NCBI GenBank assembly: GCA_024280155.1
Contig: JAJRQQ010000028.1
Location: 1 to 64,000, forward strand
Length of the DNA: 64,000 nt
Direction of reading: 5' to 3'
Origin: Bacteroidota bacterium
Lineage (GTDB): Bacteria > Bacteroidota > Bacteroidia > Flavobacteriales_D > Crocinitomicaceae
Both the position numbers and the translations under genes were made by a program. The notes beneath the pieces are model-generated. The model was given only the letters and a program-made list of their open reading frames with translations. It searched no databases and was not told the origin of the DNA. Positions 28,266 through 35,272 of the stretch are shown in pieces; position 1 is the stretch's first letter; each line of letters starts with the position of its first letter.

Positions 28266-28488
28266 ACTGATTTTTTTAATGTTCTTTAAAATTAAAATCC
28301 AATAACGTAATCTATTTACGTTGAACTAGAAAGTAATCATCAAAAACTACAACCAATACAATGTTTTGTTAATTACAAAAATTATTGATTTTTACATCGA
28401 CTACGTTAAGCATAGATTTTTTTTTTCATCGAGGTAAAAGGAAACAACAAATTCAATTTAGTAGTACAATTCTAACTAATTATATAGA

Positions 28489-33551: not shown

Positions 33552-35272
33552 CTAAAACTCAATATCTAAATTAAATGTATTCTTCAGTGAATGCATATTT
33601 GGATTTTTTCGAGCAAGTGCATTGTAACGATTTTTTCCTGTTTGGAATTTTATTTCATCCTCGGGAGCATCTGATTCTATGACTTTTATTTCGATATAAC
33701 TGTTCTTTAGTTTTCCACGAATAAAACCATGTAAGTCGCCCAATTCACTTGAAAAATAACCCACTTGGATATGATTATCAACGATTAACTCATAATTATG
33801 ATCTTCTTTTCTTTTTAAATCACGCTTAATCATTGAATTATAAATGGTTTCCTTCCCGTCTTCCTTTGCTTTAATTGCGTATTGCCTCCAGAACATCTTT
33901 AAATCGTCGAAAGAATAGTCATTATTTAAAGTTCCTTGTTTTGAAGACGCAGAAATATCTGCATTCTTTTTGCGTAACTCATGAAACTTTTTAATCGAGA
34001 GATTTGATGTGTTTAAGGAACCTGTTGGTGACTTTAGAGTCTTGGGTTCTTCAATAACCGGTGTTGTTTTTACGTCAGGTTTAACTTGCTTTGGTTTACT
34101 ATTCGCAATCTTTCGTAGGTTCTGTTTAGGAAATGGAATTATCTCAACGGGATCCGTCAGTCCTTTTTTTTTTGGAGCTCCTGATTAATGGAACACAATT
34201 GCATTAAAGCCATCTCAACCAATAATCGCTGATTCTTTGCAGCTTTGTAGTCAACATCTGTTTTACTTAGAACGCCTAAAGCTCTGAGGATATGTTTATC
34301 ATCGGTGTCTTTAGCTTGATCGATGAAGCGTTGTTTAATTGCATCCCCAACTTCTAAAAGATTGGCCGTTCTAACATCTTTACAAACCAATAGATTTCTG
34401 TAATGCTCAGCTAAACCAACAATAAAATTGTGTGTATCAAAACCTTTCTCTACAATGTCATTGAGCAATAAAAGTGATGCGGGAATATCTTCTTTTTTTG
34501 CATTTTCTACAAAACGGAAGAAATAATCATAATCAAGAATGTTTAAATTTTCAATGACTTTGTCATACGTAATGTTGTCTCCAGAGAATGTTACGATTCG
34601 ATCAAAAATTGACAAAGCATCTCTCAAGGCACCATCGGCTTTTTGAGCAATAACGTGTAAAGCACTTTCTTCTGCCTGAACACCTTCCCTTTCTGCAACA
34701 AATTTTAGATGAGAAGCGATATCATTTACACGAATTCTATTGAAATCAAAAATTTGACATCTCGAGAGAATCGTAGGAATAATTTTATGTTTTTCAGTCG
34801 TTGCAAGAATGAAAATTGCGTGTTTTGGCGGTTCTTCTAATGTTTTTAAGAATGCATTAAAAGCACTTGCGGATAACATGTGGACCTCATCAATGATATA
34901 TACTTTATGCGTTCCTAGCTGAGGAGCGACACGCACCTGAGCAATCAAGTCTCTGATGTCATCAACTGAATTATTGGATGCTGCATCTAGTTCAAAAACA
35001 TTTAATGATGCGCCAGAATTAAATGATTCACACGATTCACATTGATCGCACGCTTCAATTTTTTCTGTTCGATTAAAACAGTTGATTGTTTTTGCTAAAA
35101 TACGAGCCGTTGTCGTTTTTCCAACTCCACGAGAACCACAAAACAAAAAAGCTTGTGCTAAATGTTCACTTTTTATTGCATTCTTCAACGTATTCGTAAT
35201 GGACTTCTGTCCAACAACTGTATCAAAAGTTTGCGGTCTATATTTTCGTGCGGATACTACAAAATCACTCAT
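33552..35272 (-). CDS. dnaX: DNA polymerase III subunit gamma/tau, read across a frameshift site
   Basis: The zero frame (34157-35272, 371 aa) holds the clamp-loader ATPase: Walker A GSRGVGKTT near 47, a zinc module CFNRTEKIEACDQCESC, the DEVHML Walker B, and the LSRCQIF sensor. It stops at a TGA directly after ten As. A -1 shift there opens the frame down to 33552, adding 203 residues ending NPNMHSLKNTFNLDIEF, a tail typical of Bacteroidota DnaX, for 573 in all. So the short form is gamma-like and the shifted form tau-like. An AGGAG, an A AAA AAG heptamer and a hairpin surround the site. A simple base-calling error in the homopolymer is the alternative. Confidence 0.9.
34145..34182 (-). promoter_or_regulatory. 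Candidate recoding site in dnaX
   Basis: On the coding strand: AGGAG (34178-34182), four bases, ten As (34164-34173) ending in the zero-frame codons AAA AAG, TGA at 34157-34159, and a hairpin ACGG-ATC-CCGT (34147-34157) whose stem can extend by G-U pairs to 34145-34159. The heptamer A AAA AAG is the one used by Escherichia coli dnaX, which also relies on an upstream Shine-Dalgarno and a downstream hairpin. Confidence 0.6.

Follow-up and report, generated by a model that had tools for sequence, protein, structure and literature searches.

How this bacterium makes the tau subunit of its clamp loader is the question raised by its dnaX gene, in which the reading frame stops shortly after a run of ten As while the remainder of the protein lies in a different frame. 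The gene was analyzed in a window of 64,000 nt (positions 1 to 64,000 of contig JAJRQQ010000028.1, assembly GCA_024280155.1, Crocinitomicaceae).

The dnaX locus

The features of the locus are listed below with the evidence for each.

34157 to 35272, minus strand: zero frame of dnaX, gamma-like product of 371 aa with domains I-III (open reading frame list; NF011531 residues 1-369; TIGR02397 dnaX_nterm; Pfam DNA_pol3_gamma3)
34178 to 34182, minus strand: AGGAG, whose GAG codon (34178-34180) is conserved at the third base (codon comparison with relatives)
34164 to 34173, minus strand: A10 run, candidate slippage site (sequence; conservation in genus and family)
34157 to 34159, minus strand: zero-frame stop TGA, ending gamma when the run is read as ten As (open reading frame list, sequence)
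34145 to 34159, minus strand: short potential stem TGACGG-ATC-CCGTTG (sequence, folding)
34144 to 34146, minus strand: TGA closing the third frame, the one entered with one A fewer or two more (third-frame distance of 6 codons)
33552 to 34163, minus strand: tau-specific tail in the -1 frame, 203 aa and a stop (frame translation, NF011531, structure model)

The coding strand around the run reads CAG GAG CTC CAA AAA AAA AAG GAC TGA (minus strand). The first-pass annotation had placed the TGA three bases after the ten As; the stop is present, but four bases (GGAC) separate it from the run. The AGGAG does lie four bases before the As (34182-34178); eight bases separate it from the last heptamer, A_AAA_AAG, whose phase is correct, as described. 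The -1 frame is open to a TAG at 33552-33554 and codes for 206 aa, including three Lys of the run, so that a -1 shift gives the predicted DnaX of 573 residues (370 + 203). The zero frame and the tail matched one and the same NCBIfam gamma/tau model (NF011531, 614 residues) at residues 1-369 and 432-613, respectively (tail, E = 2.5e-20); thus, the tail, which had looked native in the first-pass annotation, is that of a DnaX protein.

The tail of the window also matched 63 of 90 tails from relatives that encode tau in the zero frame (BLASTP, E = 1e-3). Its structure model (mean pLDDT 81, pTM 0.52) contained one confident domain, for which the best fold match was DnaA domain I (4tps; E = 0.024; TM 0.67-0.69 by target and 0.32-0.33 by query). 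The folded domain of the modeled tau tail thus weakly resembles DnaA domain I, a likeness that presumably fits tau domain V. The fold search yielded nothing with an E value of 0.001 or less, the PDB sequence-profile search with the tail gave nothing under E = 0.26, and Pfam returned a single weak, unrelated match to the tail.

Conservation of the run in the genus and the family

Runs of ten As are avoided in this genome. The window contains 2, compared with a mean of 9.5 in dinucleotide shuffles, and the whole genome (2.86 Mb) contains 18 overlapping matches, corresponding to 16 places. The only other A10 of the window (28417-28426, minus strand) is located between two open reading frames of at least 80 aa and inside neither.

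Within the genus, a dnaX match was found in 34 of 34 genomes, and the site was examined in 32 of these (it was cut off in G010 and G029). All 32 loci carried A10 or A11, with the tau frame reached by one additional A (+1A) in 31 and by the zero frame in 1. In the family, at least 226 of 240 genomes had a dnaX match. After duplicates and loci with less than 60 nt past residue 362 were dropped, 149 distinct loci were kept from 176; 7 of them are named loci, and L035 was assigned by similarity. A run of at least nine As was present in 133 of these 149 loci and in none of the other 16. Among the 133, the tau frame was +1A in 129, zero in 3, and +2A in 1. Most +1A loci had A10 (113), followed by A11 (14), A12 (one), and A13 (one). 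The tail frame ended early in 3 of the 129: it was broken off after 71, 16, and 90 codons in L007, L255, and L258, where either assembly error or decay may be responsible. These three loci were retained in the family counts, L255 without a frame label in the 309-locus tree set described below.

The first-pass annotation had named a one-base homopolymer read error as the main alternative, and such an error in the assembly, or a decaying dnaX, would be conceivable in a source that is a single draft genome (88.8% complete, 114 contigs); it is barely credible, since 129 of 133 run-bearing family loci, including the single-contig genomes G081, G083, and G094, share the offset and the tail is conserved. 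Read error and pseudogene were therefore rejected on the conservation of both offset and run in genus and family. Relatives with an uninterrupted dnaX frame and no A run, the state that would have spoken against recoding, were looked for across the relatives, and this was not the state found. Judged from these comparisons, the A run, kept in more than 200 related genomes, is a real signal and not a sequencing error, and the proposed reversal of roles, with gamma in the zero frame and tau in the shifted frame, belongs to a genuine recoding site.

Run length, codon phase, and frame beyond the family

A wider set of 309 distinct loci was assembled from the best matches to the window protein and from regions picked to cover genera, and is thus a non-random sample. 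A run with a frame label was present in 254 loci (+1A, 162; zero, 89; +2A, 3), an unlabeled run in 1, and no run in 54. The most frequent run length among the 254 labeled rows was again A10 (203), followed by A11 (27), A9 (18), and longer runs (6). Runs of 9-13 As were found again outside the family, where they occupied all three codon phases (58, 37, and 26 of 121). Reversed sites, those with tau outside the zero frame, also occurred in other groups, including f2, f3, f5, f6, f7, and f8, and in the isolate Halpernia humi DSM 21580 (A11). In other classes of the phylum, a run of at least nine As near the site was found in 3 of the 20 loci taken.

When the frame relation was mapped by parsimony on a FastTree tree, 20 changes were needed, a count to be read with 98 of the 305 inner branches weakly supported and with single-base run errors in draft genomes as a possible source of false switches. 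With only the strongly supported branches considered, 8 changes were still forced among the +1A rows from outside the family. Three rows (L100, L271, and L167) need two additional As or one A fewer to reach tau; L167, with A9 where its relatives have A10, may represent a run-length error.

Four run-less loci, L079 and L101 (Bacteroidales), L185, and L195, carry a GGGGCGTAGCYC-like stretch near the usual place of the run, after DnaX domain III. The stretch is varied in L185 and L195, and could be another recoding or structural element.

Stops in the alternative frames

Stops were present near the run in both frames that do not lead to tau, one of the marks of slippage-type dnaX genes of the kind in Antonov 2013. 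Both alternative frames ran into a stop within 9 codons in 128 of 129 family loci, in 32 of 33 other reversed loci, and in 75 of 86 loci with zero-frame tau, compared with 22-25% when codons were shuffled (23% for the family).

Third-frame stops in the family were of two kinds, early (ACT GA) and late (TTRA), and the late kind was kept at 64 of 69 sites lacking the early one and at 22 of 60 sites having it (Fisher test uncorrected for kinship, P = 5.8e-12). A Pagel-type test on 128 rows favored the dependent model (LR = 27.3, P = 1.7e-5), with loss rates of 0.75 and 13.1. Against simulated independent traits, this third-frame test gave P values of only 0.049 and 0.0135, and a test by independent pairs was nonsignificant (10 pairs; on average, 1.1 in the same direction, 3.2 in the opposite direction, and 5.8 without difference).

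Elements of an E. coli-type frameshift

The first-pass annotation had likened the site, as a candidate, to the programmed -1 ribosomal frameshift of Escherichia coli dnaX with roles reversed, a reading in which shifting ribosomes would make tau. In the window, the Shine-Dalgarno-like (SD-like) sequence, the heptamer, and the stem are all present in the right phase, and nearly every reversed row in the wider set is of the -1 type. In addition, Chlorobium phaeobacteroides is named, in the part of Atkins 2016 available, as a reversed candidate with E. coli-like stimulators. Comparison of the relatives separated the elements: the A run and the frame offset were conserved, whereas AGGAG, A_AAA_AAG, and the stem occurred together in only 5 of 32 own-genus loci, window included.

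The heptamer was not conserved as A_AAA_AAG. The A-site codon of the last heptamer varied among the 129 family sites (AAG, 48; AAT, 43; AAC, 23; AAA, 14; ATC, 1) and was AAG in 6 of the 32 own-genus loci.

The upstream element was better preserved. Of the 32 own-genus loci, 28 had GGAG. Two codons ahead of the run codon, Glu was encoded by GAG in 118 of 126 Glu-bearing family sites (129 sites in all), compared with 26% GAG among the Glu codons of the same genes. Other families likewise showed an excess of GAG before the run (21 of 36 and 15 of 20). An SD-like 4-mer within the 12 nt before the run was found in 27 of 29 own-genus sites, 21 of 99 other family sites, 19 of 35 other reversed sites, and 41 of 86 sites with zero-frame tau, compared with 7-10% of random 12-mers from the same genes (9-10% for the last two groups). 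Codon comparison indicates that the GAG before the run is under synonymous constraint. Ribosomes of this class (Bacteroidia) sequester the anti-Shine-Dalgarno sequence, according to the portion of PMC9976891 available, which weakens a ribosomal reading. The third base of the GAG is kept family-wide although the ribosomes of the class reportedly do without Shine-Dalgarno pairing. A further point against ribosomal shifting is the inefficient shifting at prfB in F. johnsoniae, as given in the accessible part of PMC12421855.

The hairpin said to follow the heptamer exists (TGACGG/CCGTTG, 34159-34145), but its stability was unexceptional compared with shuffled sequences. The 40 nt after the run of the window folded at -6.0 kcal/mol (z = -0.19) and the isolated 21 nt at -4.2 kcal/mol (z = -1.30); mean z-scores were -0.78 in the own genus and -0.45 in both family classes. 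Across 29 own-genus sites, of which 25 formed at least five pairs, the 6-bp register averaged 5.17 pairs; the mean was 4.4-4.6 for the two family classes, compared with 0.9-3.4 in slid registers (1.8-3.1 for those of the own genus), which would favor a stem. The outer pairs, however, consist of the two stop codons (TRA...TTRA), and we read stem positions 0-3 as set by these two stops and a Val codon. Position 4, the freest pair, was formed in 38% of own-genus sites. Most likely, the stem arises incidentally from the two stop codons together with conserved codons, and the hairpin was rejected as a selected element on its shuffle-like stability and on position 4; a weak stem effect may exist in the own genus. 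A search of Rfam with positions 33900-34400 gave no DnaX frameshift element, even at E = 10 (the Rfam family for DnaX frameshifting is RF00382).

An E. coli-type shift was therefore rejected as the main mechanism, with the heptamer, the stem, and the Rfam search failing and the SD-like GAG alone surviving. Such a shift also has no need of a closed third frame. A -1 ribosomal shift never enters that frame, so its closure speaks for polymerase slippage, and rows L100, L271, and L167 count against the ribosomal shift because the direction that they need cannot be obtained by it. On this balance, we consider ribosomal shifting an unlikely source of tau.

Transcriptional slippage as the probable source of tau

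The reading that we prefer, mentioned in the first-pass annotation as an alternative, is that tau is made by RNA polymerase slippage on the ten-A run of dnaX, which is probable on the comparative evidence. RNA polymerase would slip on the run during transcription. Transcripts with ten As would meet the stop just after the run and give gamma (371 aa); those with one A more, or two fewer, would bring the downstream frame into register and give tau (573 aa); those with one A fewer, or two more, would be read as far as the second stop, a few codons farther downstream, and likewise yield a gamma-like protein. With slipped and unslipped transcripts at about equal frequency, it would be immaterial in which frame the tail is encoded, and relatives would be expected to switch between zero-frame and +1A tau repeatedly while keeping the run. 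The C-terminal domain of E. coli tau binds the polymerase, and by analogy the same is expected of the C-terminal domain of tau here.

Slippage is favored because about ten As are conserved where a ribosomal heptamer would take up only seven, because the run occupies all phases outside the family, because the third frame is closed, and because some rows need the opposite direction. It also has precedents in the Thermus A9 gene and in nine A10 dnaX genes of Antonov 2013. The observations are the sequence and how far it is conserved, a tail that is native, frames that are closed, and switches on the tree; slippage, its level, and both proteins are inferred from them. On the other side, reversed rows are nearly all +1A (162 versus 3), as a -1 ribosomal shift also predicts, and an A10 run includes a ribosomal heptamer whatever its phase.

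The conserved GAG and the SD-like 4-mers before the run are left unaccounted for by slippage alone. These, together with the heptamers in every phase of A10, would be accommodated if both levels contributed, polymerase slippage setting the ratio while ribosomes also slide on the run and the SD-like GAG tunes one of the two; ribosomal constraint was seen in no other element, and we regard this combination as quite unlikely.

Relatives without the run

The 16 family genomes without a run belong to the genera g7, g9, g12, g13, and g19, and their tail is still in the -1 frame.

L209-L211, L223-L225, L236-L238, and L319-L325: run-less loci

An A6 or A7 remains at the place of the run in L209, L210, L223, and L224. 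In 10 of the 16 genomes, no more than 10-19 nt lie between the opening of the -1 frame and the zero-frame stop; judged by eye, eight of these overlaps contained neither a run of more than three As nor a slippery heptamer. A_AAA_AAG is kept in the overlap of L210, L223, and L224, so a ribosomal shift is possible in these three. At the gamma stop, the overlap took the form ATGA, GTGA, TAATG, or a conserved ATC over the stop (mostly ATC-TTA-A), with a tail-frame ATC in 13 of 16, ATG in 2, and GTG in 1 overlapping or abutting the stop; elsewhere in the run-less genes, ATC represented 109 of 539 Ile codons. The run-less state required two changes on the tree, one of them on strongly supported branches, a count that agrees with a single origin as well as with more than one.

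The best, though tentative, interpretation of these overlaps, which we put at somewhat short of an even chance, is that tau has split in this group into two polypeptides, gamma and a polymerase-binding tail with a start of its own. The tail would be translated by coupled reinitiation, in most cases from a conserved AUC, and the poly-A stage of the family would have been the enabling step. These genomes provide a natural setting in which to ask whether tau has to be a single chain.

Implications and comparison with known systems

The frame switches indicate that a clamp-loader gene can repeatedly transfer its tau tail from one frame to another and still retain the ten-A run. Whether the third frame is closed serves as a comparative test that, from sequence data, helps to separate polymerase slippage from ribosomal shifting. 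In such genomes, automated annotation probably reports gamma alone.

The architecture itself is already published, as far as the available parts of Antonov 2013 and Atkins 2016 describe it. Beyond these two papers, titles and abstract openings (mostly without subscription papers) on dnaX in Bacteroidota, Flavobacterium, or Fluviicola and on reinitiation contained nothing on such a site or on a split tau.

E. coli dnaX shares with this one genome an in-phase A_AAA_AAG, an upstream SD-like sequence, and a small downstream stem; it differs in that here the roles are reversed, the set of elements is not conserved among relatives, and Rfam gives no match. Thermus thermophilus dnaX, for which transcriptional slippage on A9 is described in the consulted part of Baranov 2005 (PMC1088944), resembles the present gene in its A run, in the stops in both other frames, and in giving gamma and tau from one gene; there, however, the run has nine As and tau is the zero frame, whereas here it has ten and gamma is the zero frame. 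Closest are the two-ORF dnaX genes of Antonov 2013 (PMC3711429), given in the accessible text as 17 genes in 12 genera; slippage was suggested for the nine of them that carry ten As. They share the two frames, the -1 offset in the DNA, the ten As (nine genes), and tau by recoding. Unlike in the accessible text of that report, the site is traced here across one family and into other groups, and frame switches, a closed third frame, and a run-less group are described.
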